Source of the DNA: Gorillibacterium timonense
GTDB lineage: Bacteria; Bacillota; Bacilli; Paenibacillales; NBRC-103111
Reading direction: 5' to 3'
Assembly: GCF_001457415.1 (NCBI RefSeq)
Contig: NZ_LN881719.1
Span: 1-64,000, forward strand
Length of the DNA stretch: 64,000 bases
Shown here piece after piece: positions 1,106-62,509 of the stretch. The position numbers and the translations under genes were made by a program. A model generated the notes under the pieces. It did not search any database. It saw nothing but the letters and a program-made list of their open reading frames with translations, and was not told where the DNA came from. Position 1 is the first letter of the stretch; each line of letters opens with the position of its first letter.

Positions 1106-1570
1106 ATGCGCAATGCTTCGGATATGATTGAACAGTATCTCAAGAATATTCTGATGCAAAGCCCAACCGGCGTCATCGAGATTCAACGCAATGAGTTGGC
1201 CGATCGATTCCAATGCGTCCCCTCGCAGATTAACTACGTGATCAGCACCCGCTTTACTCTGGAAAAGGGCTACATCGTGGAAAGCAAACGGGGTGGCGGT
1301 GGCTATATCCGGATTCAGAAGGTTCAGCTGTCCTCTCATGGAGTTATTCTGGATTACGTACTTGGAACTATCGGTGACCGAATTGATCAAACCAGTTCGG
1401 AAGGGTTGCTGTATCAACTCGAGGAGGGCGGATTCATAACCTGTCGGGAGGCCAGCCTCATCAAGGCGGCCATGTCGCGAGACGTTCTCTATCTCAAGCT
1501 TCCCCTTCGGGATGAAATCCGAGCCAGGCTGCTGAAGGCAATGTTATTGTCATTGCTCAGCCATCCATAA
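1106..1570 (+). CDS. ctsR: Transcriptional repressor of class III heat-shock genes CtsR
   Basis: CtsR represses clp and related protein-quality-control genes and is inactivated by heat and by the McsB system. The 154-residue product equals the family length. It has an N-terminal winged helix-turn-helix domain and a glycine-rich wing, KRGGGGYIRI at residues 61-70. Arg62 in that wing corresponds to the arginine phosphorylated by McsB in Geobacillus. The ATG at 1106 follows a GGAGGGTG ribosome binding site. It is first in ctsR-mcsA-mcsB-clpC, behind its own operator at 992-1008, so autoregulation is very likely. Confidence 0.97.
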   Translation: MRNASDMIEQYLKNILMQSPTGVIEIQRNELADRFQCVPSQINYVISTRFTLEKGYIVESKRGGGGYIRIQKVQLSSHGVILDYVLGTIGDRIDQTSSEGLLYQLEEGGFITCREASLIKAAMSRDVLYLKLPLRDEIRARLLKAMLLSLLSHP

Positions 1571-1584
1571 GGAGGGAGTACCAA

Positions 1585-2106
1585 ATGCTTTGTCAGGAAT
1601 GCGGAAAACGTCCGGCAACCCTGCATTTTACCAAGATTGTCGGCGGTGAAAAGACGGAATCGCACCTGTGCGAAACCTGTGCGAGGGAAAAGGGAGAGCA
1701 AATTCCCGGAACACCGGGCGGGTTTTCGATCCACAATCTGCTGTCGGGACTGCTCAATTATGATTCAGCTGCCATGCCGGGTACTGTAGCGGCGCCGCCG
1801 ATGAACAACCGGTGCGAGGAATGCGGACTTACTTATGCGCAGTTCAGCAAGCTGGGGCGATTCGGCTGCAGCTCGTGCTACCAAGCATTCGGCGATCGGC
1901 TTGACCCGCTGTTTAAGCGGGTGCACGGAAGCACCTCCCATAGCGGTAAGGTGCCCCTGCGCTCCGGCGGGGTTCTTCAGCAGAGGCGGGAACTCAATGC
2001 GCTCAAGCAGAGGCTGTCAGAGCTGATCCAGCAAGAGGAATTTGAGGAAGCGGCTTCGATCCGCGATCAGATCCGCGAGCTGGAAAAACGGATCTCCGAC
2101 GTATAA
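1585..2106 (+). CDS. mcsA: McsA, zinc-finger activator of the McsB arginine kinase
   Basis: McsA activates the protein arginine kinase McsB and links it to ClpC-dependent proteolysis. The 173-residue product has four CxxC pairs, at residues 3/6, 29/32, 77/80 and 95/98, enough for two zinc sites. A C-terminal UVR-type coiled segment follows at about 135-170, the element that contacts ClpC or McsB. The gene starts 14 bases after ctsR with AAGGAGGGAG ahead of the ATG. It is slightly shorter than the B. subtilis protein, mainly in the linker. Confidence 0.95.
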   Translation: MLCQECGKRPATLHFTKIVGGEKTESHLCETCAREKGEQIPGTPGGFSIHNLLSGLLNYDSAAMPGTVAAPPMNNRCEECGLTYAQFSKLGRFGCSSCYQAFGDRLDPLFKRVHGSTSHSGKVPLRSGGVLQQRRELNALKQRLSELIQQEEFEEAASIRDQIRELEKRISDV

Positions 2107-2118
2107 GGAGGGTGCAAC

Positions 2119-3177
2119 ATGGTAGTGGGACATTTTACCGATCATGCCTTGAGCGACTGGATGAAGCAGGAGGGGCCTGAATCCGATATTGTCCTGTCCA
2201 GTCGGATTCGACTGGCGCGCAATATGCGGGGTTATCCCTTCCCGATGCTGGCGACGAATCAGCAATCCCGCGATGTGCTCGATAAGGTTACCGAGGTGCT
2301 GGAGAACGAGGAGCTGCGGGAGCTGGGAGATTTTACGATCATTCCGCTTTCCGACATCAGCGAGCTGGAGAAGAAGGTGCTGGTTGAAAAGCACCTGATC
2401 AGTCCGAGCCTAGCGAACGAATCGCGAGGCGGAGCGGTCATTCTCAGCCAGAATGAATCGATCAGCATCATGGTGAACGAAGAAGACCATCTTCGCATCC
2501 AATGCTTGACTCCCGGGTTTCAAATCCGCGAGGCCTGGGATATGGCCAACCGGATTGATGATATTATAGAAAGTCAATTGAATTATGCCTTCGATGAACG
2601 GCGGGGGTACCTGACCAGCTGTCCCACGAATGTGGGAACCGGTCTTCGCGCTTCGGTGATGATCCATCTCCCGGCGCTTGTGATGACCCAGCAGATCAAT
2701 CGCATCCTGTCCGCCGTCACTCAAGTGGGGCTGGTCGTTCGGGGAATGTACGGGGAAGGAAGCGACTCTTCCGGCAACCTGTTTCAGATCTCCAACCAGA
2801 TTACCCTCGGGCAATCCGAGGAAGAGATTTTGAACAATCTCTATGGCGTGGTTCAACAGATCATTGAGCATGAACGCGCCGCTCGCGAAAGGCTTCAAGA
2901 GGATACGCCGCATCGTTTGGCAGACCGGATTAACCGATCGTTTGGCATCCTTTCCCATGCGGTGATCCTCGACTCCAAGGAAGCCATGCAGCGGCTGTCG
3001 GATGTTCGCCTTGGCATCGATCTGGGCCTTCTCGGCGGTATTGAGCCGAAGACGCTGAATGAGCTTTTGGTTATGACACAACCGGGATTTTTGCAGAAGC
3101 ACTCGGGAGAACTGCTCACCGCTGAGAACCGGGACATCCGCCGAGCGGAGCTCATCCGCGAACGGGTTCAGGAGTAA
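2119..3177 (+). CDS. mcsB: Protein arginine kinase McsB
   Basis: McsB phosphorylates arginine residues on CtsR and damaged proteins, tagging them for ClpC-ClpP. The 352-residue product is a phosphagen-kinase-like enzyme. SSRIRLARN (27-35) and NEEDHLR (120-126) form the nucleotide and guanidino site, and CPTNVGTGLR (168-177) carries the catalytic-loop cysteine. The RDxxRA motif near residue 338 is the phosphoarginine-binding allosteric site of the C-terminal domain. The ATG at 2119 follows AAGGAGGGTG. It is co-transcribed with mcsA and clpC. Confidence 0.96.
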   Translation: MVVGHFTDHALSDWMKQEGPESDIVLSSRIRLARNMRGYPFPMLATNQQSRDVLDKVTEVLENEELRELGDFTIIPLSDISELEKKVLVEKHLISPSLANESRGGAVILSQNESISIMVNEEDHLRIQCLTPGFQIREAWDMANRIDDIIESQLNYAFDERRGYLTSCPTNVGTGLRASVMIHLPALVMTQQINRILSAVTQVGLVVRGMYGEGSDSSGNLFQISNQITLGQSEEEILNNLYGVVQQIIEHERAARERLQEDTPHRLADRINRSFGILSHAVILDSKEAMQRLSDVRLGIDLGLLGGIEPKTLNELLVMTQPGFLQKHSGELLTAENRDIRRAELIRERVQE

Positions 3178-3225
3178 CGGTCGGGACGGTAGTCGACCCG
3201 AATTTAATAACGGAGGTGCTAGTGA

Positions 3226-5652
3226 ATGATGTTTGGGAGATTTACGGAACGGGCACAAAAGGTGCTTGCGTTGGCTCAGGAAGAGGCGGTTCGCCTCGGT
3301 CATAACAATATCGGAACCGAACATATCCTGCTCGGTCTGATTCGGGAAGGAGAGGGGATCGCCGCCAAGGCGCTCATGGCCCTCGGTCTCGGTCTCGAGA
3401 AAATTCAAGACGAAGTGGAATCCCTAATCGGACGCGGACAAGAACAGCCGACGAATATTGCATATACCCCGCGCGCCAAGAAAGTGATCGAGCTTTCCAT
3501 GGATGAAGCGCGGAAGCTTGGCCATACCTACGTAGGCACGGAGCATATTCTTCTCGGTTTAATCCGCGAGGGAGAGGGCGTAGCCGCACGGGTACTAAAC
3601 AACCTGGGCATCTCGCTCAACAAGGCTCGCCAGCAGGTTCTTCAACTGCTCGGGAGCAGCGACTCGGTTTCATCCAACCACGGGACGCAAGCGAATGTCA
3701 ACACGCCAACACTGGATGGACTGGCGCGTGACTTGACGGCCTTCGCCAAGGAGGGCAACATCGATCCGGTGATCGGTCGGAGCAAGGAGATCGAGCGCGT
3801 CATCCAGGTGCTGAGCCGTCGGACGAAGAATAACCCGGTTCTCATCGGGGAACCTGGCGTCGGGAAGACGGCGATTGCGGAAGGGCTCGCCCAGCGCATC
3901 GTCAACAACGAAATACCGGAGACGCTCCGGGAGAAACGCGTCATGACGCTGGATATGGGCTCGGTTGTCGCAGGCACCAAGTACCGCGGCGAATTCGAAG
4001 ACCGCTTGAAGAAGATCATGGATGAGATCCGTCAAGCAGGCAATATCATCCTCTTTATCGACGAGCTTCACACCTTGATCGGTGCAGGCGGAGCAGAGGG
4101 CGCTATCGACGCGTCCAACATCCTGAAGCCGGCGCTTGCCCGGGGCGAGCTTCAGTGCATCGGGGCGACGACGCTGGACGAATATCGCAAATACATCGAG
4201 AAGGACGCAGCTCTGGAGCGCCGCTTCCAGCCGATCCAGGTCGACGAGCCGACGCCGGAGGAAGCCATTCAGATCCTTCACGGGCTGCGCGACCGCTATG
4301 AGGCTCATCACCGCGTGAAGATCACCGACGAAGCGATCGTGCAAGCGGTGAAGCTGTCCGACCGCTACATCACCGATCGTTTCCTGCCGGACAAAGCCAT
4401 TGACCTCATCGATGAAGCCGGCTCGAAGGTACGGCTGCGCTCCTATACGACGCCTCCGCAGCTCAAGGAGCTGGAAAGCAAGCTGGAGGACATCCGTAAG
4501 GAGAAAGACGCTGCAGTGCAGAGCCAGGAGTTTGAGAAAGCCGCTGCTCTGCGCGATACGGAGCAGAAGCTGAAGGAAGAGCTCGAAGATACCCGCAATG
4601 AGTGGAAGGAAACGCAAGGAAGAACCGATTCAGAGGTAACCCCTGAGGATATCGCGGACGTCGTGGCGAGCTGGACCGGCATCCCGGTACGGAAGCTGGC
4701 CGAAGAGGAAACCGAACGGCTGCTCAAGATGGAATCGATCCTTCACGAGCGCGTCATTGGGCAGGATGAAGCGGTGCGTTCCGTAAGCCGCGCGATTCGT
4801 CGGGCACGGGCAGGACTGAAGGATGTGAAGCGTCCGATCGGATCGTTCATCTTCCTTGGACCGACCGGCGTCGGGAAAACTGAGCTCGCACGCGCACTGG
4901 CCGAAGCGATGTTCGGAGACGAAAATGCCGTCATCCGGATCGATATGTCCGAGTACATGGAGAAGCACTCGACCTCCCGTCTCGTCGGAGCGCCTCCGGG
5001 ATATGTCGGCTACGAAGAAGGCGGCCAACTTACGGAGAAAGTACGCCGCAAGCCTTACTCCGTCGTGCTGCTCGATGAAGTGGAGAAGGCGCACCCGGAA
5101 GTGTTCAACATCCTGCTGCAAGTGCTGGAAGACGGCCGACTGACCGACTCGAAGGGACGCACGGTCGATTTCCGCAACACGCTGATCATCATGACCTCCA
5201 ACGTCGGGGCCGATACGATCAAGAAGAATTCCACGCTCGGATTTACGGCCGCTGACGATTCAAGCCGCGAATATAACAACATGAAGGACAAAGTCATGGC
5301 TGAGCTGAAGAAGAGCTTCCGTCCGGAGTTTCTCAACCGGATCGACGAGATCATCGTCTTCCACAACCTGGATGAAGCCCATATTCAGGAGATCGTCTCG
5401 CTGATGGCCGAAGATCTTCGCAAGCGCCTGAAGGAGCATGACGTAGACTTCGTCCTGACCGAAGAAGCCAAGAAATTCCTCGCGAAGGAAGGCTATGATC
5501 CTGCATTTGGAGCAAGGCCGCTCCGTCGGGCCATTCAGAAGCACATCGAGGATCGCCTGTCCGAGGAACTCCTCAAGGGCAACATCGCCAAAGGTGATTC
5601 TCTCACCATTGACGTGAAAGAAGGCGCGCTCGAAGTCGTTCGCAACGGGTAA
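3226..5652 (+). CDS. clpC: ATP-dependent unfoldase ClpC
   Basis: ClpC is the AAA+ unfoldase that feeds arginine-phosphorylated and MecA-delivered substrates to ClpP. The 808 residues include two N-terminal Clp repeats (about 1-145). The first ATPase module has Walker A GEPGVGKT at 208-215. A UVR-containing middle domain lies near 425-465, and the second module has Walker A GPTGVGKT at 545-552. The length fits the family (about 810). The ATG-ATG start follows CGGAGGTG. A hairpin terminator follows at 5681, so radA is not simply the next gene of the operon as it is in B. subtilis. Confidence 0.97.
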
Positions 5653-5680
5653 GCAGCCCAATACTAGCACAAACGCCAAG

Positions 5681-5746
5681 CACCCGATTCACCGTAACGT
5701 TCCTCTCTCTATGGGAGGGATCGACGGAGAATCGGGTGTTTTTTGC
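5681..5746 (+). terminator. Terminator behind clpC
   Basis: CACCCGATTC at 5681-5690 pairs with GAATCGGGTG at 5729-5738, followed by a T-run to 5744. An inner hairpin (CCTCTC/GGGAGG) fills the loop. It ends the ctsR-clpC transcript before the LRR gene. Confidence 0.85.
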
Positions 5747-5895
5747 GCTGCAAATGCCAGGCGTAACGATTTCGCATGGTTCAGAAGAGGCTAGATCTCT
5801 GGTCGACAGAGACTGGAAATAATAAGTATAGTTGTATACTAGGCGGCGTTCGATTGCTATAATTATACAATCATCGCCATTGAGAGGAGCTCTTT

Positions 5896-8400
5896 ATGCG
5901 TCGCCGTTGCCATCGTCTCTTTCCTGTATTTCTTGCTCTACTTCTAATCGCAGGACTTGTCCCCATCCTGCCCAGTCCGCAAGCGCGGGCAGAGAGCCTT
6001 GCCTATATAGAAGATCCTTTCGTGGAAGAAGCCATTCGCGCGAAGCTTGAATACGATCCTAATCAACCGCTCACTAAAGAGGCGGTGTACAGTCTTCACT
6101 CGTTGGAGATTCATTCGAGTAAGGTCCATTCTCTTCGAGGATTGGAGGATGCAGGGCAGTTGGTCATGCTTACTCTGACGGACAGCAAAGTGACCGATTT
6201 CACGCCTGTGCTGGGACTCCAAGGCTTGCGAGTCTTGGATCTGAGCCGCAATGAAATCGTGAGTCTGGCTCCATTCGCATCCCTAAGGGATCTGGCCGAG
6301 CTGAATGTAAGCCACAATCAGATCAAGGACTTGTCTCCGCTCTCCAAGCTGACCAAGCTGGAGAAGCTGAATGTGTCCGGCAATCAGATTACCAGCCTCG
6401 ACCCTCTCAGTGGGCTTGCGGAATTGAACGTATTGGATTGCTCCGATAATCAGGTGAGCAGCTTGAAGCCCTTGCTAAAGCTGACGAACCTGACGAAGCT
6501 CTCCGTTTCGAAGAACCTTCTCGATCTTACGGATACGGAGATAGTCGAGCAGATCAATACGCTAAAGCGTACGAAAGTAACGCAGTTCGTGGATGCCTAC
6601 ACGGAGCAAAAGGCGGTCCCGAAAAGCAAGCTGCTGCTGGATTGGACCGAGGTAACCGGGCTTGAGGCCTCATATTCTTGGAACTATGCTTACGGTAACG
6701 GACGCTATGTAACCGCGGCTTCGGAAGGCAATACGATGGTTTCGACAGACGGCCTCAATTGGACAAGGTACTACTCTGGCGATTCCCAGCCCTTCATGTC
6801 CATTGTTTGGGGCAAGAATGAATTTTTGGGCTTCAAGCCGGAAGGGTGGGGGAACACCGTTTGGAGCTCCAAGGACGGGATCACCTGGACCAAGCATAAG
6901 GAGAAGTTCGGAACCGGCAGCTGCCGGCTTGCCGCCTGGAACGGAAAGCGTTATGTCGCCGTAGACGGGGGGATCTATACATCCGAGGACGGGCAAAAAT
7001 GGACCAAGCGCTCGTTGAATCTCGACACCCAAATCCAGGGACTTGCCTATGGCAATGGGGTATTTGTAGGTCAGGGAGAAGAGTGGGGTCAAGTGGTCGT
7101 CTCTTCAGACGGCATCACCTGGAAAACAGTGAAGACCAAGCAGCCCAACTATCATGACATGTACGATATTGCTTTTGGCGGAGGACTCTTTGTTGCCGTT
7201 GGCGGCAGCACGATCATGACCTCCAAGGATGGCACGACGTGGACGTACATCTCCGCCGCTTCATCTAAGACCACGCTCAGCCAAGTGATGTGGGCCAAAG
7301 ATCGCTTTTACATATACGGTTCGGAGTACACGCCTTCTCGCAAACCGGCTCATCTGACCTCCAAGGACGGGAAAAAGTGGACCAGCGCCGGCTTTACGAA
7401 TTCGCCAAATCAAGAGCCCCAGTTTACGCTGTATAACGGAAAACAGTATGTGACCGCGACCACGGCAGGATTTCAGACCTCCGCCAACGGAGTGAAGTGG
7501 ACCCAAGCCTTCACCTATCCGCTGTTCGATACTGGGATTCTTCAAGACTCAGCGGTGGGCAACGGAAACCTGGTCATGGTCGGCGGACATTATGACTCCT
7601 TTAGGCAGGTTGAACAGAGCTATCAGAGTGCTGTACGGATGGGGACGGACGGGAAGTGGAAAGGATCCTCGATCAAAGGGACCCTTCCGCTAACAAGTGT
7701 CGTCTGGACCGGCAAGGACTTTTTTGCAGTAGGGTATTCCGGTAAAATGATGACCTCGACCGACGGTCTTGCCTGGAAGGCGATCGCTTCTCCGACCAAG
7801 GAAACCTTGAGCAGCGTCGCCTATGCGAACGGGAATTATTATGTCAGCGGGACAAAAGGAACGATTCTGACCTCCACCGACCGGGTGAAGTGGAAGAAAG
7901 CGAATACAGGCGTCAGTGTAACGCTGAACTCGATTGCGGCTAATGACAAGATGGTGGTCGCAGTGGGGAAGGAAGGGACGCTGATTGTTTCTAAGGACGG
8001 GGTGAATTGGACCAAGCCGGCCAAACTGTTCAAGGGCGATCTCTACGATGTGGTTTGGGGGAACGGCAAATTCGTCGCGACCGGCCAAAGCCATGTGGAA
8101 AATCGAGAGGATTCGACCGTCTTGGTCTCTTCCGACGGAACGACCTGGAAGAAGATTTCGTTCAAGGATGAAACGCCAGAAGGGTCGGTCAGCACGCCGG
8201 GCTTATACGGAGTTTCCGCTGTGGGCGGATTGTTTGTCGCGGTAGGAAGCGGCGGAGCCGTCTTCGTCTCGGAGGATGCGGAGAAGTGGAAGAAGCAGCC
8301 CGCGATGACAGCCGGAACGTGGCTCGTGGCAGCCGAATTTAAAGGCAGTGTCTATCTGGTAGGGAACTCTAACAAGACCTTGGTGGCCAAGCTGCCTTGA
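5896..8400 (+). CDS. Secreted leucine-rich-repeat and beta-propeller protein
   Basis: This 834-residue protein begins with a signal peptide: an Arg-rich start, a Leu/Ala core and a likely cleavage after ARA at 30-32. Residues of about 60-215 form some six short leucine-rich repeats of the LxxLxxLxxLxLxxNxI type, resembling internalin-like domains. From about 235 to the end there are roughly thirteen copies of an SxDGxxWT-like motif, each with a GNGxFVAVG-type strand, which suggests one or two beta-propellers. I see no LPxTG anchor, transmembrane segment or catalytic motif. A GAGGAGC ribosome binding site precedes ATG 5896. A -10-like TATAAT lies at 5858-5863. It probably acts outside the cell in binding; the ligand is unknown. 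It sits between clpC and radA, which are neighbours in B. subtilis. Confidence 0.85.
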   Translation: MRRRCHRLFPVFLALLLIAGLVPILPSPQARAESLAYIEDPFVEEAIRAKLEYDPNQPLTKEAVYSLHSLEIHSSKVHSLRGLEDAGQLVMLTLTDSKVTDFTPVLGLQGLRVLDLSRNEIVSLAPFASLRDLAELNVSHNQIKDLSPLSKLTKLEKLNVSGNQITSLDPLSGLAELNVLDCSDNQVSSLKPLLKLTNLTKLSVSKNLLDLTDTEIVEQINTLKRTKVTQFVDAYTEQKAVPKSKLLLDWTEVTGLEASYSWNYAYGNGRYVTAASEGNTMVSTDGLNWTRYYSGDSQPFMSIVWGKNEFLGFKPEGWGNTVWSSKDGITWTKHKEKFGTGSCRLAAWNGKRYVAVDGGIYTSEDGQKWTKRSLNLDTQIQGLAYGNGVFVGQGEEWGQVVVSSDGITWKTVKTKQPNYHDMYDIAFGGGLFVAVGGSTIMTSKDGTTWTYISAASSKTTLSQVMWAKDRFYIYGSEYTPSRKPAHLTSKDGKKWTSAGFTNSPNQEPQFTLYNGKQYVTATTAGFQTSANGVKWTQAFTYPLFDTGILQDSAVGNGNLVMVGGHYDSFRQVEQSYQSAVRMGTDGKWKGSSIKGTLPLTSVVWTGKDFFAVGYSGKMMTSTDGLAWKAIASPTKETLSSVAYANGNYYVSGTKGTILTSTDRVKWKKANTGVSVTLNSIAANDKMVVAVGKEGTLIVSKDGVNWTKPAKLFKGDLYDVVWGNGKFVATGQSHVENREDSTVLVSSDGTTWKKISFKDETPEGSVSTPGLYGVSAVGGLFVAVGSGGAVFVSEDAEKWKKQPAMTAGTWLVAAEFKGSVYLVGNSNKTLVAKLP

Positions 8401-8488
8401 GAATGGATTGTATCATCGGTAAGTTTCATTAAGTCGACAAAAATGGTACACTTCGGAGAGTGCGTATTTTTTAGAGTTGGAGATCGAT

Positions 8489-9859
8489 ATGGCGAAAGCG
8501 AAAACGAAATTTGTCTGTCAGGACTGCGGATACGAATCGCCTAAATGGCTTGGGAAATGTCCGGGCTGCGAGGCCTGGAATACGCTTGTGGAAGAAGTGG
8601 AGACGAAGGTGATGACCCAGGGGGTCCTCCCGGTAAGCGGGCTCTCTCAGGAGAAAGCGGTCTCGATCACGGAGATCGCCGGAGCGCTTGACCCGCGGAT
8701 CCGAACGGAGAACCGGGAGCTCGATCGCGTCCTGGGCGGAGGAATCGTACCGGGCTCATTGATTCTGGTCGGCGGCGATCCGGGTATCGGTAAATCGACT
8801 CTCCTTCTGCAGACGTCTCACTCCTTGACTCTCGCAGGCCGTAAGGCCCTTTATATATCAGGAGAAGAATCGGCGCGGCAGACGAAGCTGCGGGCCGATC
8901 GCCTCGGGGCGTTGTCTCCCCTGCTCTATGTGCTCTGCGAAACCAATCTGGAGCGGATCGACGAGGCCATCGAGAAGGTGGCTCCGGATTTCGTTGTGAT
9001 CGACTCCATTCAGACGGTGTACCATCCGGCTGTCACGTCCGCTCCAGGAAGCGTTTCCCAGGTGCGGGAATGCACCTCGCACTTCATGCGGCTCGCCAAA
9101 ACGAAGGGAATCGCCATCGTTCTGGTCGGACACGTGACGAAGGAAGGAGCGATCGCCGGTCCGCGACTTCTGGAGCATATGGTGGACTGTGTGCTGTACT
9201 TTGAAGGCGAGCGCCACCATACGTATCGCCTGCTCCGCGCGGTCAAGAACCGGTTCGGTTCGACCAATGAGATCGGGATTTTTGAAATGCGGGAGGCGGG
9301 TCTCGCCGAAATTGCCAACCCGTCCGAGCTGTTCCTGTCGGAGCGTCCTCGGGGAGTATCCGGTTCGACGGTCGTTGCCAGCATGGAGGGGACGCGGCCG
9401 ATGCTCGTCGAGCTGCAGGCCTTGGTCTCTCCCACGACCTTTCCCTCACCCCGAAGGATGTCAACAGGCTTTGATTACAACCGCATGTCGCTTATCATGG
9501 CTGTGTTGGAGAAGCGCAATGGCTTGTTCCTGCAGAGCCAGGACGCCTATCTGAATGTGGCGGGCGGAGTCCGTCTGGATGAACCGGCCGTGGATCTGGG
9601 GGTTGCGGTAAGCATTGCTTCCAGCTTTAAGGATCGCCCCACGCGTCCGGACGACGTCGTATTTGGGGAGATCGGCCTCACCGGCGAGGTCCGGGGCGTC
9701 TCCCGGATCGAGCAGCGGGTTCGGGAAGCGGAGAAGCTCGGCTTTAAACGGATCATTCTTCCGGCGATCAGCTTGAAAGGATGGATACCGCCCGAAGGTA
9801 TCGCAGTAAAGGGAGTCAACACGGTAGCGGAAGCTCTGGCAGCCGCTCTTGACGAGTAA
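8489..9859 (+). CDS. radA: DNA repair protein RadA
   Basis: RadA (Sms) is a RecA-like ATPase that helps branch migration in recombination. The product has an N-terminal zinc finger (Cys 10, 13, 24 and 27), Walker [10 protein letters not shown] at 95-103, the RadA-specific KNRFG motif near 253 and a C-terminal Lon-protease-like domain. At 456 residues it is close to the usual 458. The ATG at 8489 is preferred over an in-frame TTG at 8477, because GGAG at 8479-8482 is well spaced for the ATG and overlaps the TTG. disA follows as in B. subtilis. Confidence 0.95.
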
Positions 9860-9976
9860 TCATCGAATTGGATTCATATGCCGATAGGATCGTTAGGACT
9901 AGAGAAATACCCAGGGGAGGGAGGCCGGCAGCAGCGCCGATTCAACCGAGCTAGGGCTAGAGAGAAGAGGGGGTAC

Positions 9977-11050
9977 ATGATGGCGAAGGAAGAAGAAATA
10001 AAAGGACGGATCATTAAGCTGGTCGCTCCCGGAACCCAGTTCCGAGAAGGGCTGGAGAATGTGCTGCGGGCGAAGACCGGCGCGCTTATCGTTGTCGGTT
10101 ACAGTCCGGAGGTAATGGAGCTTGCAGATGGCGGATTCTGCATCAACTGCGACTTCACCCCTAACTTTTTATACGAGCTTGCGAAGATGGACGGAGCGAT
10201 CATCCTAAGCGAGGATGTCAAGAAGATTCATTACGCCAACACGCAGCTCAATCCCGATCCAGCCATTTCCTCGAATGAAACCGGGATCCGTCACCGGACG
10301 GCGGAGCGCGTCGCGAAGCAGACCGGCAAATTGGTGGTCTCCATCTCCCAGAGGAGGAATATCATTACCCTGTATCAGGGGAACTTGCGGTATTCCCTTA
10401 AAGATATCGGCGTCATTCTGACGAAGGCCAACCAGGCGATGCAGACACTGGAAAAATACAAATCCGTGCTCGATCAGAATCTCATCAATTTGGGAGCAAC
10501 GGAATTTGAAGATGCGGTGACGTATGAGGACGCGGTTCACGCCCTGCAGAGGGCAGAAATGGTGCTGCGGGTCAAAGCCGAGATCCGGCGCTACATCAAC
10601 GAGCTTGGGGTGGAGGGCCGGTTGATCAGCATGCAGCTCGAGGAGTTGGTCGCTCACATCGAGCATGAGTCGGTCTTGCTCATCCGGGACTATGCCCGGG
10701 AGAACACCGATGAGAAAATCAAGGAGATTCGGGCCGGACTCTCGCGGCTCACAAGCGAGGAACTGCTCGATCTGCATCACATCGTTCGACTGCTCGGCTA
10801 CAACGTCACGAACAACATTCTCGATGAGCAGGTGTCGCCTCGCGGGTTCCGGGTGCTGAACAAGATTCCCCGGCTTCCCTCGATCATCATCTCCAATCTG
10901 GTCGAGAAGTTTGAGTGTCTTCCCCAGATCATATCCGCCTCCATCGAGCAGTTGGATGAAGTGGATGGGATCGGCGAAGTCCGCGCAAGAGCCATCAAGG
11001 AAGGGCTTCGGAGATTTCAAGAGCAGGTATTCATTGACAGGCAAATCTAA
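9977..11050 (+). CDS. disA: DNA integrity scanning diadenylate cyclase DisA
   Basis: DisA makes cyclic di-AMP from two ATP and is paused by branched DNA. The 357-residue product has the catalytic DAC motifs DGA (72-74) and RHR (105-107), a helical linker and a C-terminal helix-hairpin-helix DNA-binding domain around 305-345. The start at ATG 9977 (or 9980) is chosen from GAAGAGGGGG just upstream and from the family length of about 360. In-frame sequence back to 9878 lacks conservation and a ribosome binding site. It is paired with radA as in Bacillus. Confidence 0.96.
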
Positions 11051-11116
11051 ATTGACTACAATTTTGTAGGTTAACTTCCTGCCGTCAGCTTGCGGCGGAT
11101 ACAAAGGTGGGTCCTC

Positions 11117-11815
11117 ATGTTACGAAAATCGGTACCCAACATGTTCACGGTGCTGAACCTCTTTTTTGGGATCGTCGCGATCATACTCGTTTTGAACGAC
11201 ACCCCGGTCTTTCCCGATTTTGACAATGCCAATCTGGCGTCGATCATCGTCATCATCTCGATGATGATGGACGGCATCGACGGACGGCTGGCCCGTGCGC
11301 TCAATGTGCAGAGTGAATTCGGGAAGGAACTCGATTCCTTGTCCGATGTCATCTCGTTCGGGGTCGCTCCAGCCTTTATCATGTATGTCGTGGCTTACGG
11401 AGACATCAATCCTCCCTTGGCTTGGATCACCACCGCGATCTTCCCCATCTGTGGGGCCTTGCGGCTTGCGCGGTTTAACGTCATTGAAGGCATTCCGGGG
11501 TATTTCATCGGGCTCCCGATTCCGGCTGCCGGAGTTATCCTCTGTACCCTTGCGTTGTTCCATCAGGAGATGAGCTCTTATGTTCTCGTGCCTGCTTCGC
11601 TCTTGCTTTCTTTTCTCATGATCAGCCGGATCAAGTACCCAAGCTTCAAGAAGGTTCGCATTACCAAAAAAGCGGCTCTTCTCATGCTCCTATTTGTAGG
11701 AATCGCCCTGATCATTGCGGTTCTGTTCCCGAACTATCTGTCCCGCCTCATCTTCGTCCCTCTCGTGATCTATGCGCTGTACGGAACCTTCATGGGCTTC
11801 AAGCGCAAGCGATAG
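11117..11815 (+). CDS. pssA: CDP-diacylglycerol-serine O-phosphatidyltransferase
   Basis: This membrane enzyme joins serine to CDP-diacylglycerol, making phosphatidylserine, the precursor of phosphatidylethanolamine. The 232-residue protein is mostly hydrophobic helices. It carries the exact CDP-alcohol phosphotransferase motif DGxxARx8GxxxDxxxD starting at residue 55. ATG 11117 follows AAAGGTGG with six-base spacing; the in-frame codon at 11090 has no such site. It lies 66 bases behind disA in the same direction, and a terminator follows. Confidence 0.92.
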   Translation: MLRKSVPNMFTVLNLFFGIVAIILVLNDTPVFPDFDNANLASIIVIISMMMDGIDGRLARALNVQSEFGKELDSLSDVISFGVAPAFIMYVVAYGDINPPLAWITTAIFPICGALRLARFNVIEGIPGYFIGLPIPAAGVILCTLALFHQEMSSYVLVPASLLLSFLMISRIKYPSFKKVRITKKAALLMLLFVGIALIIAVLFPNYLSRLIFVPLVIYALYGTFMGFKRKR

Positions 11816-57105: not shown

Positions 57106-57498
57106 ATGGCACAAGTGCAATACTATGGAACCGGTCGTCGCAAACATTCGGTAGCGCGTGTGCGCCTTGTACCGGGTGAAGGACGCATCGTAATCAATAA
57201 GCGGGACCTGAACGATTACTTCGGTCTGGAAACGCTGAAGCTGATCGTCAAACAACCGCTTAACCTGACCGAAACCACGTCTAAATACGACGTCTTGGTT
57301 ATCGCTCATGGTGGCGGAATGTCCGGCCAAGCCGGCGCAATCCGTCACGGCATCTCCCGCGCGCTTCTCAAGGCTGACCCGGAATTCCGTGGTTCCTTGA
57401 AGAAAGCCGGCTTCCTGACCCGCGATCCGCGGATGAAGGAACGGAAGAAATACGGCCTCAAAGCCGCTCGTCGTGCTCCTCAGTTCTCGAAACGCTAA
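57106..57498 (+). CDS. rpsI: 30S ribosomal protein S9
   Basis: S9 reaches the P-site tRNA with its C-terminal tail (RRAPQFSKR, intact). The 130 residues equal B. subtilis S9. ATG 57106 follows AAAGGGAGGACAG. Its 3' end and terminator border the integrated island, but the coding sequence is undamaged. Confidence 0.97.
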
Positions 57499-57521: not shown

Positions 57522-57557
57522 AAGCCTCTGGCCTTTTATGGGTCAGGGGCTTTTATT
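57522..57557 (+). terminator. Terminator behind rpsI, overlapping the left island repeat
   Basis: AAGCCTCTG and CAGGGGCTT form a nine-pair stem followed by TTTTATTT. The 3' arm and T-run are part of the 27-base repeat at 57542-57568. Confidence 0.85.
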
Positions 57558-57568
57558 TGCTTTCAGGG
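57542..57568 (+). repeat. Left flanking repeat of the island (candidate att site)
   Basis: GTCAGGGGCTTTT, then ATTTG, C and TTTCAGGG. The same sequence recurs at 60613-60637 with two bases missing and one C-to-T change. It sits between rpsI and the integrase gene, the normal place of an attachment site. Confidence 0.55.
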
Positions 57569-57594
57569 CATCCGTGACCATTTATTTGAACTGT

Positions 57595-58935
57595 TTAGAG
57601 CTCAAGGAACTTCTCAAATCGGTCTGCAGCTTTTTCCTTGGCGGCCTTAGTGACGTGGGTATATATGTTCATGGTCATCTGGATATCGGAGTGTCCCAGT
57701 CGCTCCTGAACCTCCTTGATGGATGCACCGGCTTCAAACAAGAGTGAGGCGTGAGTGTGACGAAGACTGTGAATGGTGATCGTATGGAGGTTATGAGCCT
57801 TGATCAATTCGGCCAGCTTATCGTTTGGGTATGCAAGGCGGAGTGGTGTGGAATCATCTTCGCGGGTAAAGAAATAATCATTGTCCTGAGTTCCTGTTGT
57901 AGATCCGATAGCTAGAAGGCGCTCCTTTTCGCTTGTGCGGCGTTTCTTGATAAGGGCAAGGGTTTTGTTATCGTCCAAGCTGATAATGCGCCTAGAAGCG
58001 GCTGTTTTGGAGGTCAGAGAGGTAAACCCGCTTTTGTCTTGGAATAAAGTCTTGGAGAAGTTGATCGTTTTTGCCTTTGCATCGACATCTCCCCACCTTA
58101 ACGCAAGGACTTCACCTTTTCTGGCTCCTGTGTAGATCAGGAGATGGAACATAAGCTGATCTCTTGGAGTGCAATCTCGCTTAACCGCAGCCAGAAACTT
58201 TTTAATCTTGGCCTTTTCCCAATAATTTCGACTTTCAGAAGTCGGAACAGCTAAGTGCTCCTTTTCGGCCTTAGGGATCGTTGTACCTTTCATGGGATTG
58301 GTGGCCCGGATCTCCATCTTAACCGCGTATTCAAACACCTGGGAGGCATACATGCGCATGTTATCTACGGTCTTTATCTTCTTAGCTAATTTGTTGATGA
58401 CTTTTTGGCAATAGCTTCGTGTAATGTCCTTCATCTTGAGCTTGCCGAAGTGGGGAAGGAGCTGCCGGCGGAACTTTGAAACCACGGCCTTCCGGGTACT
58501 CGGCTTGAAATTGGGCTAGTTCGTTTCGAACCATTGAAGGTACACCTGTTCGAAGGTGATCTGCTTGTCCCCTCCGATAAATGTCCCCTCAGCAATCTCC
58601 CTTTCCGTTTTGGCAGCGTCGTGCTGCGCTTCCTTCTTCGTCTTGAATCCCCGCTTGGTTGATGGCTTTCGCTTTCCCGTCTCCGGATTAAGCTCACCGT
58701 AATTTAAAGATTTTATGTCATAAACAAGGTTATTCATTTCAAAAACTAATCTTTCAAGTGCATTCTCATTTTTTTTAGTGTAATTACGAGCAAAAAAGTC
58801 TATTCCTGCTTTTTCAAATCCATTTGACGTAGAGGGGATAATATCCTGCATTACAAAAAACATGTTCTTAAAAATGGAATATATTATAATAAAGATCACA
58901 ACATGGAAGTGTTTTAATGAGTATAATGAGCTCAC
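57595..58935 (-). pseudogene. Phage/ICE-type tyrosine integrase interrupted by an in-frame amber codon
   Basis: On the minus strand one reading frame encodes a tyrosine recombinase, broken only by TAG at 58518-58516. Upstream of the stop lie a KTKKEAQ-type arm-binding region and the start of the core-binding domain (ITFEQVYLQWFETN). Downstream, after the stop, the frame continues PNFKPSTRKAVVSKF through the catalytic domain. That domain has Arg in TGARKGE, HSLRHTH, LGHSD and the nucleophile region NIYTHV, all intact. A CAG-to-TAG change would explain it. The first 60 or so codons do not resemble integrase starts, so the 5' end may also be replaced. A truncated 296-residue product from GTG 58485 is conceivable. 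It points toward rpsI. Confidence 0.85.
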
Positions 58936-58945
58936 ATCTTAGAAA

Positions 58946-58954
58946 TGGTATAAT
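58946..58954 (+). promoter_or_regulatory. Extended -10 promoter of the secreted-protein gene
   Basis: TGGTATAAT is an extended -10 element about 20 bases before the ATG at 58975. No clear -35 box is visible. Confidence 0.55.
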
Positions 58955-58974
58955 ATAACATATTAAGGATGGAT

Positions 58975-60044
58975 ATGTATAAAACAAAATGGCGCTTATT
59001 GGAGTTGCTGCTTCGGTCTTATTCCTTTCCTTGTCTGTCCCCCATTCTAATCATGTAAAGGCAGATGTTTTGAATGTTAGGGGAAAAGTTACAAGCGATA
59101 TTACCATATCCCAATCAGAAATTGATGCTTTTAAGGAAAAAATTCATCAAAGAATCACTGAAAGCTCTAGTACAACCTTATCAAAAATGAGGTAAGACAA
59201 GTTCGATAAGGAAATCTCAGTTATCGACGGAGAAAGTCACCTAATAAATGGGTTGCCCAATCTTACTGTAACAATTAATTATCGATCATATGTAACTAAT
59301 ACTAACGGTGAATTCTTCGCTTCTTTAAAACCAGGATATTATGATGCGGATGTATCGTTTCTAGGGCATGAAATATACAATGCGAAAATTAATATTATTG
59401 AGGGTACTAACGATGTTAACATTTCATTAAAGCAAAAGCTTGATGATCTCCCTTCAAATATGGACAACAACATGGATATGAGCAACATGGATATGAGCAA
59501 GGATATGGGCAACATGGATATGGGCACTCATAATTCAATGAAAATGAGCAATAACAACGTGAGTAACTCTACCAATTCAACTGATGTGGAAGAATGGGTT
59601 GTTCCTTATTCAGATCCGGGATCGGGTGGAGGAAGTACTTCTTGGCACGGTGTGACTGTTGGAGGAGCTTTTGGCACCGGAGCTCATGGGATTATGACAT
59701 TATTAACTGCAGACGGCCATGTTTCGTGTAACAAATCCTCTTGGGATAATGGAGCCAACTTTCCCAATAACAATTCGGATTGTGCAATTGCTATCATGGA
59801 TGGCCTGTTATATTTATCAGATGCTAAGACATTTTTGCCTTATTATTCCTGGTATTACTGTGTTATTGAAAGTATGAAAACAAAGGATGGAGGTGGAGCA
59901 AATATATACTGTAATCGTCAAACCGCTTTATCCGGAACAAAGCCACATGTTTCCTATTTCCAAGGATATTTGAATTTAGGCTATAATTGCTCAAGTTTCC
60001 CTATGATAAACGGTGATGAAAGACTCAATAAATATAACTTCTAG
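58975..60044 (+). pseudogene. Secreted Met-rich protein, broken by a frameshift and an in-frame stop
   Basis: The ATG at 58975, behind AAGGATGG, opens MYKTK and then runs out of frame. One extra A in the A-run at 58986-58989 would join it to MALIGVAASVLFLSLSVP, a good signal peptide. The reading frame then meets TAA at 59193-59195 and continues in the same frame to 60044. The later part has a carboxypeptidase-regulatory-like beta domain (PNLTVTINYRSYVTNTNGEF). A Met-rich segment follows, encoded by 15-base tandem repeats (59469-59525). The C-terminal domain of about 135 residues has five cysteines and no family I recognise. The Met cluster could bind copper; this is speculation. Low GC content marks it as foreign. 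Confidence 0.7.
59469..59525 (+). repeat. 15-base tandem repeats coding for NMDMS units
   Basis: AACATGGATATGAGC occurs twice in direct succession (59469-59483 and 59484-59498). A shortened copy follows (59499-59510), then AACATGGATATGGGC (59511-59525). All keep the reading frame and encode the methionine-rich segment. Confidence 0.9.
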
Positions 60045-60116
60045 ATTAAAAACTGTTATTGATTAAGAGAGAAGACGTATGTCTTCTCTCAATTTATTTC
60101 TATGGTGGGATAGAGA

Positions 60117-60557
60117 ATGAAAAAAAAGAAAAATGTTTTGATCTTTTCATTAATCATTCTTGCTATATTGTCTGGAACACTATTCTTACTTCACCAACGA
60201 GGCAATCCAAAAGAACAAAGAAAAGAGCCGTTTTTCCTCGAAATCGGATATGAGGTTAATGATAGTAATATGCGAATTATTCATCCAAAAACAACTTTTG
60301 ATCGATCGAGGCCCTTGTTACTATTGGCAGTTTTCAATAAAATTCGAGGAAACGATAATGTTGTTTCGACTGTGAAAGTGGTAAGTAAATCAACAAATCA
60401 AATTGAACAGGAATACTCCTGGAGGGAATCAGAGTATTCATCTCAAATGCAAATTTCTCTAGAGAACACCTCATGGAGTCCGGGTGAGTATACAATCGTT
60501 TGGGAACGAGATGGCGTCATAGTGGCAGATGTAGATCTGAAATTGTTACTAAAATGA
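60117..60557 (+). CDS. Small membrane-anchored extracytoplasmic protein, unknown function
   Basis: The 146-residue protein has a Lys-rich start and one hydrophobic segment (about 7-25), then a soluble extracytoplasmic domain. The end, SWSPGEYTIVWERDGVIV, resembles an immunoglobulin-like strand pattern. There is no lipobox cysteine. I do not recognise a family. It lies 72 bases behind the broken Met-rich gene in the same direction and has similar low GC, so it probably came with the island. A weak GGTGGGATAG site precedes the ATG. Confidence 0.65.
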   Translation: MKKKKNVLIFSLIILAILSGTLFLLHQRGNPKEQRKEPFFLEIGYEVNDSNMRIIHPKTTFDRSRPLLLLAVFNKIRGNDNVVSTVKVVSKSTNQIEQEYSWRESEYSSQMQISLENTSWSPGEYTIVWERDGVIVADVDLKLLLK

Positions 60558-60594
60558 TTATTATTTTGGATTACTTCGCAGTGCTTGTGAATTT

Positions 60595-60627
60595 GCCCTG
60601 ATGGCTTCGGCTGTCAGGGGCTTTTTT
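60595..60627 (+). terminator. Terminator at the right end of the island
   Basis: GCCCTGA and TCAGGGGC pair with one bulge around a 12-base loop, followed by six T residues. Its 3' arm is part of the right flanking repeat. Confidence 0.75.
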
Positions 60628-60637
60628 GTTTTCAGGG
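60613..60637 (+). repeat. Right flanking repeat of the island (candidate att site)
   Basis: This 25-base sequence matches 57542-57568 at 24 positions with a two-base gap. Downstream sequence returns to GC-rich chromosomal genes. Confidence 0.55.
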
Positions 60638-60851: not shown

Positions 60852-61157
60852 ATGGAGTCAGATGCTTATACACGGTTTGTGATTTTGCTCAGCATGAATG
60901 AAGGTCGAGCCTTCACGGAAGATCTCATTAAGGAGCATGTCCGACACTTACGCGAACTGGATCAGCAGGGAAAGCTGATTCTATGCGGACCTTTTATTGA
61001 TTACAAAGGGGGGATGGTCATCATCCAGGCGGAATCCTATGAAGAGGCCGATCAAATTGCTAGGCGAGACCCCTTTGTTTCTTCTGGGACCGAGAGCTAT
61101 GAGCTGCGGACATGGGAATTATCGAACGAAGAAAACAACCACTTGGGTGCTGGTTAA
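60852..61157 (+). CDS. YciI-like (YCII-related) protein
   Basis: The 101-residue product is a YCII-related dimeric alpha/beta barrel. The N-terminal FVILLSMNEGRAFTEDLIKEHVRHLRELDQQGKL and the segment IIQAESYEEADQIARRDPF, given here for orientation, hold the His and Asp typical of the fold. The family includes a dehydrochlorinase-like enzyme and many proteins of unknown role. ATG 60852 follows GGAGGACA. It stands alone in the 1.2 kb between the island and cysH. Confidence 0.85.
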   Translation: MESDAYTRFVILLSMNEGRAFTEDLIKEHVRHLRELDQQGKLILCGPFIDYKGGMVIIQAESYEEADQIARRDPFVSSGTESYELRTWELSNEENNHLGAG

Positions 61158-61267: not shown

Positions 61268-61438
61268 ATGGAGCAGGACTTCAGAGAAATGGACCGAACA
61301 GAATTTGTGAAAACGCTTCGTTCTCATTACGGATTTGTATCGGAGAACGAAAATGATGATGATGGGGATTGGGCGATCCTTGAGCAGTGGGAGTCCTTGT
61401 TGGACGGAACATTTATGAAGAAACCCACGGTAAAATAG
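61268..61438 (+). CDS. Small acidic hypothetical protein
   Basis: A 56-codon frame starts at ATG 61268 behind GGGGGTGG. The product is acidic (VSENENDDDGDWAILEQW) with no membrane segment. A possible promoter (TTGACA at 61202-61207, TATACT at 61223-61228, spacer only 15) precedes it and a strong terminator follows. That supports a real transcript, but I recognise no family. Confidence 0.55.
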   Translation: MEQDFREMDRTEFVKTLRSHYGFVSENENDDDGDWAILEQWESLLDGTFMKKPTVK

Positions 61439-61514: not shown

Positions 61515-61816
61515 ATTTTATTAATTGTACCTATCTGTAAGGGACCTTAGCTAAACATCGTGAATACGATAAAGTTCGTGAGTAGCATTAGCGTATTTTC
61601 AAACCGGATCCGTATGGTCCGGTAGGATGATTTCACGGATCGGAGCTTCTTTGGTTCGCATTCAAACGGTGATGATGGTCCATTTCGTTCCTCTTAGCGG
61701 TTTTAAAACAAGCCTTAGTGGGATAGTTGACAATGGTTGACAAAACCTTGATACCTTCTATAATTGAGTAAAGCGTTAAAACGCATGGGAATAGTATAGA
61801 TTAGGAGGGGCTCCAT
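61515..61816 (+). promoter_or_regulatory. Upstream region and promoter of cysH
   Basis: No gene lies in these 302 bases. A sigma-A promoter is formed by TTGACA at 61737-61742 and TATAAT at 61759-61764 (16-base spacer); another TTGACA lies ten bases further upstream. ACCGGA/TCCGGT (61603-61608 and 61618-61623) is a small inverted repeat. I found no S-box and no clear CymR or CysL site. Confidence 0.65.
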
Positions 61817-62509
61817 ATGAACCTGTTGGAAAAAGAACAGTGGATCAAACAGGCTGCCGATGAATTGGAGGGTAGGAATGCCGAAGAAGCCATCCAGGCT
61901 GCTGTCCGGCGATTTCCCAATCTCACACTCGCCTGCAGCTTCGGCGCCGAGGATATAGTTCTTGTTGATCTGCTGCATCAGGTAAAACCAGACGCAGATG
62001 TCTTCTATCTCGATACCAGCCTGCATTTTGCCGAAACCTATGAAACAAAGAATCGTCTTGAACAGCTCTACGGGAAATCATTTATTCAAGTTTTGCCTAA
62101 GCTGACTTTGGAGGAACAAGCACAGGAGTACGGAAATGAGCTGTGGTCGTCTGACCCGAATGCGTGCTGTAACATCCGTAAAGTAAGTCCCCTTACCGAA
62201 ATTCTCAGTCACTACGATGCTTGGATAACGGGGATTCGACGGGATCAAGCGCCAACTCGGGCTAACTCCCGCAAGGTGGAATACGACGGTAAGTTCGGAC
62301 TTGTCAAATTCAATCCTCTTGCCGATTGGACTTCCGAGGATGTTTGGGCATATATCCGTGAGCATGAACTCTTTTATAACCCGCTGCACGATCAGAATTA
62401 TCCCAGCATTGGCTGTGAGAAATGTACCCGTCCTGTCCTTAACGGGGAAGACCCGCGGGCGGGGCGTTGGGCAGGCTTTGAGAAGACAGAGTGCGGCCTT
62501 CACAAATAG
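61817..62509 (+). CDS. cysH: Phosphoadenylyl/adenylyl-sulfate reductase CysH
   Basis: CysH reduces activated sulfate to sulfite. The 230-residue product has the SFGAEDIVLVDLL nucleotide loop. Its CC pair at 117-118 and CxxC at 200-203 bind a [4Fe-4S] cluster, the mark of APS-using or dual-specific reductases. The catalytic cysteine lies in the C-terminal ECGLH (Cys226). The iron-sulfur type and the neighbouring sat fit direct APS reduction. ATG 61817 follows TTAGGAGGGGCTC. Confidence 0.93.
   Translation: MNLLEKEQWIKQAADELEGRNAEEAIQAAVRRFPNLTLACSFGAEDIVLVDLLHQVKPDADVFYLDTSLHFAETYETKNRLEQLYGKSFIQVLPKLTLEEQAQEYGNELWSSDPNACCNIRKVSPLTEILSHYDAWITGIRRDQAPTRANSRKVEYDGKFGLVKFNPLADWTSEDVWAYIREHELFYNPLHDQNYPSIGCEKCTRPVLNGEDPRAGRWAGFEKTECGLHK

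Follow-up and report, generated by a model that had tools for sequence, protein, structure and literature searches.

A probable dead rpsI-integrating element behind the rpsI gene of Gorillibacterium timonense

The DNA analysed here, hereafter the window, comprises the first 64,000 nucleotides of contig NZ_LN881719.1 of Gorillibacterium timonense (assembly GCF_001457415.1), and our subject is a small island that lies in it between rpsI and cysH. Directly behind the intact rpsI gene there are a terminator, a tyrosine integrase pseudogene pointing at rpsI, an AT-rich stretch, two cargo genes of low guanine-cytosine (GC) content and a second terminator resembling the first (Table 1). A first-pass annotation, made from the letters and a list of their open reading frames, had taken this region for a small integrative element in decay, inserted behind rpsI and bounded by a short repeat; this description stands, whereas the duplicated rpsI 3' end that characterizes related elements had been missed. 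As set out below, the island is very probably what remains of a temperate phage, or of a phage satellite, that integrated at rpsI and has since decayed.

Table 1. Features of the rpsI-cysH region in the window
Feature	Coordinates	Strand	Basis or remark
rpsI, target gene, intact	57106..57498	+	reading frame, match
Core of the left attachment site (attL), last 60 bp of rpsI, stretch replaced by the element (by homology)	57439..57498	+	tail copies in relatives, attP of L130
rpsI terminator, probably brought by the element	57522..57552	+	hairpin
Left repeat copy (terminator right arm and T-run)	57542..57568	+	alignment
Single TGACCA, putative integrase arm site	57575..57580	+	spacers of relatives
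Tyrosine integrase pseudogene	57595..58704	-	match over the catalytic domain; lacks about 19 N-terminal residues
In-frame stop of the integrase	58516..58518	-	reading frame
AT-rich stretch where integrase homology ends	58705..58988	.	putative deletion scar
Cargo gene 1, predicted secreted protein (by eye), weak CarboxypepD_reg match	58989..60044	+	in-frame stop 59193-59195
Cargo gene 2, small protein, single hydrophobic stretch near the N-terminus (by eye)	60117..60557	+	weak homologue in G065
Right terminator with right repeat copy (60613-60637)	60596..60637	+	hairpin, alignment; rpsI tail not detected beside it
yciI-like gene beyond the right copy	60855..61157	+	no match in the rpsI loci of 29 relatives
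cysH, usual gene next after rpsI	61817..62509	+	gene order of relatives

The near-identical sequence at both edges of the island, on which the first-pass annotation was built, is present as described. Its left copy (27 bases) and its right copy (25 bases) align at 24 identical positions, with a single mismatch and a gap of two bases, and the match continues on the right beyond the T-run. The alignment scores 38, a value to be compared with at most 29 among 2000 plain shuffles of the right side, in which hairpins are not preserved. Both copies do overlap terminator-like hairpins, the right one having its stem at 60596-60619. When a 146-base query was compared with the window's own genome, the right copy was the sole match to the repeat segment among the 20 matches listed (expectation value, E, up to 10), with a genome-wide E of 0.055, and another part of the query matches equally well elsewhere (C6). 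Genome-wide the pair is therefore at chance level, and it is notable only by position, its copies lying 3 kb apart on the same strand.

The integrase gene is convergent on rpsI, as had been annotated, with its match ending 106 bp from the C-terminus of rpsI; it is, however, a pseudogene, which carries an in-frame stop and lacks in its frame the N-terminal residues present in the integrases of relatives. Spacers between rpsI and the integrase hold two to four TGRYCA sites in 14 relatives (all relatives compared in this work come from other genera) against one TGACCA in the window; the exact TGACCA is absent from the spacers of loci L032 and L043, and L055 has four copies of it. It is reasonable to suppose that the TGRYCA sites are arm sites of the integrase.

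Loci with related integrases were gathered by a scan of named genomes, which gave 16 loci, and from order and class samples, where matches at E 1e-60 were obtained in 4 of 296 genomes and, in the second sample, at E 1e-70 in 23 of 398 (both counts include the window's own genome). The closest integrase found, 69% identical to that of the window, belongs to genome G091. Twenty-four of the 40 loci examined, including the window and G091, encode integrases that share 50% identity or more with the one of G091, and 21 of these are convergent on rpsI with the match ending 78-134 bp from its C-terminus (L038 with the rpsI tail only). Besides these, L045 has an integrase fragment next to which the final ~15 bp of the rpsI tail survive along with a terminator and, by eye, TGACCA-like repeats, and L126 has a partial integrase match without rpsI. 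Among the 16 loci below 50% identity, one lies 67 bp from rpsI, three lie 327-458 bp away and twelve have no rpsI in their flanks. In a tree of Bacilli integrases with 35 rows, from which five of the 40 were excluded as shorter than 250 amino acids, one side of a branch supported at 100/98 unites 19 rows located within 140 bp of rpsI with a single exception, L050; one of the 19, L111, has a long branch and an uncertain position, and L046 (61 amino acids matched at a contig edge) was not used in the integrase comparison. The window integrase is sister to that of G091 with 100/99 support. Among phage records, 79 encode integrases, all below 60% identity, the best among the matches listed reaching 40%.

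The site used by elements of this clade can be read from their far ends. L032, L034, L037, L039 and L043 each repeat the final ~62 bp of rpsI, stop codon included, and the same tail is found at the right ends of the elements of G091 and G208. Because a second integrase adjoins the tail copy of L043, this locus is a tandem; its stretch 1396-11395 holds two integrases of the rpsI clade, one followed by the rpsI gene and the other by an rpsI tail. The duplication ends at the stop codon in L032, whose two terminators differ, and extends through the terminator in L034, L037 and L039 (88-94%), so that a duplication of the rpsI tail can include a repeated terminator as its outer half.

Five of 22 viral loci were read (L128-L132). 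Three of them (L128, L129 and L131) end at the integrase, and no rpsI tail was seen in L132. The remaining contig, L130, which is taken for a free phage on the basis of its IMG/VR listing, encodes an integrase 62% identical to that of G091, an identity by which it was placed in the clade from outside the tree. Its segment 4191-4800 contains, in order, the integrase, TGACCA repeats, a terminator, the last 60 bp of rpsI (91% identity), more TGACCA repeats and a reading frame, and its best alignment to rpsI is to the tail only. This segment is a phage attachment site (attP). Since the relatives duplicate the rpsI tail and the attP of L130 includes it, the element supplies both an rpsI tail and a terminator, and the attachment core is probably the final ~60 bp of rpsI, which precede the terminator. 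The terminator repeat, which the first-pass annotation had proposed as the site of insertion, is probably not the attachment site. Its related suggestion that insertion provided rpsI with a working terminator agrees well with these data, given that elements of this kind bring their own.

The most similar elements point to a phage-like parent. The G091 integrase lies in a prophage that also encodes terminase, portal, head, tape-measure and endolysin proteins and would be about 50 kb long assuming that two contig ends overlap; in G208 terminase, portal, protease and head proteins are encoded between attachment-site (att) copies 38.7 kb apart, and phage proteins were confirmed in L042. Smaller islands also occur in the same integrase clade, with the rpsI tail copies of L032, L034, L037 and L039 only about 6-10 kb apart; their integrases are 54-57% identical to that of the window and their genes were read by eye. 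In all these elements, as well as in L130, the integrase is preceded by rpsI or its tail, by a terminator and by TGACCA-like repeats, as in the window, which shares its integrase clade in the tree with G091, G208, L042, L032, L034, L037 and L039. Far ends are known in these loci except L042; in the window only the integrase is kept and no far end is recognised. The window thus has a convergent integrase of the rpsI-specific clade without a far rpsI duplication. No relaxase or conjugation genes were recognised in the island, nor any regulator, excisionase or replication genes of phage satellites resembling phage-inducible chromosomal islands (PICI).

Elements at rpsI have been described before in other Firmicutes, so that the idea of a ribosomal-protein gene end as integration site was well founded (PMC5341023, PMC5090054). 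The Macrococcus islands McRImecD-1 and McRImecD-2, of 16-18 kb, have a tyrosine integrase at the rpsI 3' end and a core att of 61 bp that includes this end, with strand exchange placed in its first 8 bases; McRImecD-2 is without the right repeat, and rpsI-associated integrases in Bacillus were already reported in the same source (PMC5341023). The ~60-bp tail duplication of our relatives agrees with this 61-bp core. Like these islands, the window has its integrase at the rpsI 3' end, and just as McRImecD-2 is short of its right repeat, no rpsI tail was found on the right side of the window. In contrast to them, McRImecD carrying mecD and McRImecD-1 being able to excise, the element of the window is broken, about 3 kb long, in another family and equipped with other cargo, and the likeness is one of site. 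With its integrase broken and no right attachment site found, it would not be expected to excise as a circle. In streptococci, integrative and mobilizable elements (IMEs) and integrative and conjugative elements (ICEs) are found at rpsI (PMC5090054, PMC5357655), and group B streptococci have prophage or PICI-like elements there (PMC7487436). Like the present loci, these elements insert at the 3' end of rpsI, accrete in tandem and include decayed members; IMESag-rpsI, on the other hand, carries a relaxase, a gene not recognised in the window island. No paper on an rpsI-inserted Paenibacillus prophage was met in a limited literature search, which says little beyond its scope. The island is a dead new member of these already known rpsI-integrating elements.

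The cargo is of low GC content, as annotated (27-44% versus about 50-56% in rpsI), with a sharp fall at the integrase edge. Gene 1 is interrupted by an in-frame stop. The only PHROG match in the cargo is a weak one of the small membrane gene (gene 2) to the HNH family (E 0.005). Matches to gene 1 were obtained in 4 of 397 other genomes sampled. One of them, G065, has a homologous pair of genes at an unrelated chromosomal place (L104:8845-9991), the second gene being a weak match (E 4e-6), and G486, G509 and G521 have homologues of part or most of gene 1. A Met-Asp-rich stretch occurs in the window gene and in two members of this group of homologues; as a guess, it might bind metal.

To place the two terminators of the window, we compared them with those of 44 out of 45 loci (L038 excluded). 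The left terminator region is most similar to L008 (score 66), L055 (45), L009 (38), L042 (33), L018 (33) and L056 (32); an integrase is present in L055, L042 and L056, and extra DNA before cysH in L008, L009 and L018. Where cysH lies at most 455 bp behind rpsI, 21 of 22 loci score no more than 21, the shuffles reaching 23 at most. The first-pass annotation's repeat claim, by which relatives without the island would keep a single copy, was therefore not borne out in these loci, L013 with a score of 30 being the exception. Four of 15 integrase-bearing loci exceed 23 (L055, L042, L056 and L043, the last with 27), and the left terminator of the window is probably element-borne. For the right terminator region the best scores among the 44 loci are those of L008 (33), L055 (28) and L056 (26), and its comparison with the right-end terminator of G091 gives 19 (shuffle maximum 16). 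In a separate observation, the rpsI terminator of genome G057 is the best match to the left terminator of the window.

Taken together, these results suggest the following history. A temperate phage, or else a phage satellite equipped with such an integrase, would have integrated site-specifically into the rpsI 3' end; its attP would have brought in the final ~60 bp of rpsI together with the stop codon and a terminator. After the insertion rpsI would still have been complete, now ending in the tail and terminator of the element, while those of the host were moved to the far end. During later decay the middle of the element may have been deleted up to the 5' end of the integrase gene, the integrase and one cargo gene would have acquired their in-frame stops, and the right-hand rpsI tail would have been lost. 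The right repeat copy is most likely either the displaced rpsI terminator, which would form the outer part of a longer direct repeat, or a terminator that an earlier element of this type left behind.

Several observations weigh against this history. No second rpsI tail was found by an ungapped scan of the window or by a search of its own genome, for which reason the right boundary is unproven, and besides the integrase no phage structural, replication or repressor gene was recognised in the island, whose cargo pair was likewise not found in the rpsI elements examined. The choice of site can change within the clade, since the integrase of L050 adjoins, by eye, the 3' end of a different gene. 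Taken as a sign of phage origin, rpsI tail identity does not distinguish loci, being alike with and without inserts (means 0.86, n=9, and 0.85, n=23); of these 32 rows the top two (93 and 91%) have an insert or an integrase and the next two (89%) do not. As for the left terminator, 11 of the 15 integrase-bearing loci score only 14-21 against it, the fossil locus of genome G003 (see below) scores 22 and the long-interval loci L014 and L030 score 14 and 13, and the empty-looking locus L013, already mentioned, belongs to another family; because of the unlike integrase-bearing loci and of L013, this terminator could be of a type shared by some hosts.

Other readings of the repeat pair have to be considered. 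If the terminator arm and T-run were the attachment core, the two copies would be the left and right attachment sites (attL and attR) of a precise insertion, and in fact the copies are real, occur at either edge and stand out given their position; this is nevertheless very unlikely, since relatives with integrases 54-69% identical to that of the window duplicate the rpsI tail upstream of the terminator, the attP of L130 holds the rpsI tail and the two terminators of L032 are unlike each other. We also regard it as unlikely that the right terminator simply belongs to the small membrane gene and does not descend from the rpsI terminator. Such an origin would account for a genome-wide E no better than that of an unrelated match and for the lack of resemblance between the rpsI side and the 59 bases ending at the right repeat (their alignment was equalled by 350 of 500 shuffles), but not so well for the right copy being the only listed genome match to the repeat segment, for a match that runs past the T-run with a score above all shuffles, or for the resemblance to the right-end terminator of G091. 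The best matches of the right region, to L008, L055 and L056, favour a displaced host terminator or that of an older element over a terminator of the membrane gene.

The nature of the parent, on which no gene of the window decides, and the origin of the cargo leave more room. The four compact islands of the same clade, together with the 16-18 kb of the rpsI islands of Macrococcus (PMC5341023), would fit a parent that was a small satellite-like island of 6-10 kb rather than a full prophage, yet the nearest integrase is in a prophage of about 50 kb and those of the four islands are more distant, which makes such a parent rather improbable. That the two cargo genes arrived separately instead of being carried by the element is a possibility of some substance, although we lean the other way: the homologous pair at an unrelated place in G065, the gene 1 homologues in three more genomes and the sharp GC drop at the integrase edge speak for it, while the genes lie between the integrase and the right terminator, no second integrase or transposase was recognised there, and low-GC accessory genes commonly sit at element ends. 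A decayed rpsI-integrating phage or satellite remains, on this balance, our preferred reading of the island.

A parallel case was found in genome G003, which belongs to the window's family. Gapped alignment for an rpsI tail on the right side of the window gave a score of 19, equalled by 99 of 200 shuffles, and the same test in G003 revealed a mutated rpsI tail before cysH, which scored 67 where the best of 200 shuffles reached 25; no integrase match was obtained in G003 at E 1e-3. G003 is a parallel fossil. Its stretch L053:15436-17969 has a terminator, a TGACC site and a predicted secreted-protein gene (by eye) ahead of the mutated tail. In two other long rpsI-cysH intervals, L051 (score 24) and L052 (17), a test for repeats of their own gave no tail copy; at L051:8967-11200, in G057, a metalloprotease-like and repressor-like pair lies between rpsI and cysH and resembles, by eye, the pair of G091. 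The rpsI-cysH interval is a site where several genomes hold different remnants.

If our reading is correct, successive phages or satellites would exchange the last ~20 codons and the terminator of rpsI, an essential ribosomal gene, an exchange made permanent in lineages where the element died, with old terminators piling up at the right edge; we offer this tentatively, at somewhat short of even chances. For reading fossils at rpsI, the mark to look for is the coding end of the gene, given that an element-borne terminator can pass for a direct repeat, and the attP of the viral contig documents the carriage of both gene tail and terminator. The practical reach of this is modest.

The neighbourhood had been described as ordinary chromosomal genes beyond both repeat copies, but those behind the right copy are only in part what usually follows rpsI. 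An rpsI match was obtained in 57 genomes and 30 loci were examined, the window's own and those of 29 relatives; cysH follows 141-455 bp behind rpsI in 22 of the 29, and no yciI match was present in any of the 29 loci (each about 3.4 kb). The 1.2 kb with yciI between the right copy and cysH is thus extra relative to those 22 loci, and because of this the true right limit of the element could lie past the right copy. We considered yciI as a part of the island and rejected it; matches with E up to 1e-15 occur in 7 of 103 other genomes of the family and in none of the 29 rpsI loci.

Some further features were noted. At L050:1083-1343 the layout of terminator and TGACCA is similar despite the different target gene, which we take, from its C-terminal residues, to resemble a diaminopimelate dehydrogenase gene. 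A reading frame of 56 amino acids between yciI and cysH (61268-61438) is matched, among the loci compared, only in those of the window's own genome, and a promoter-like site (61737-61764) with 12 of 12 positions and a spacer of 16 precedes cysH.

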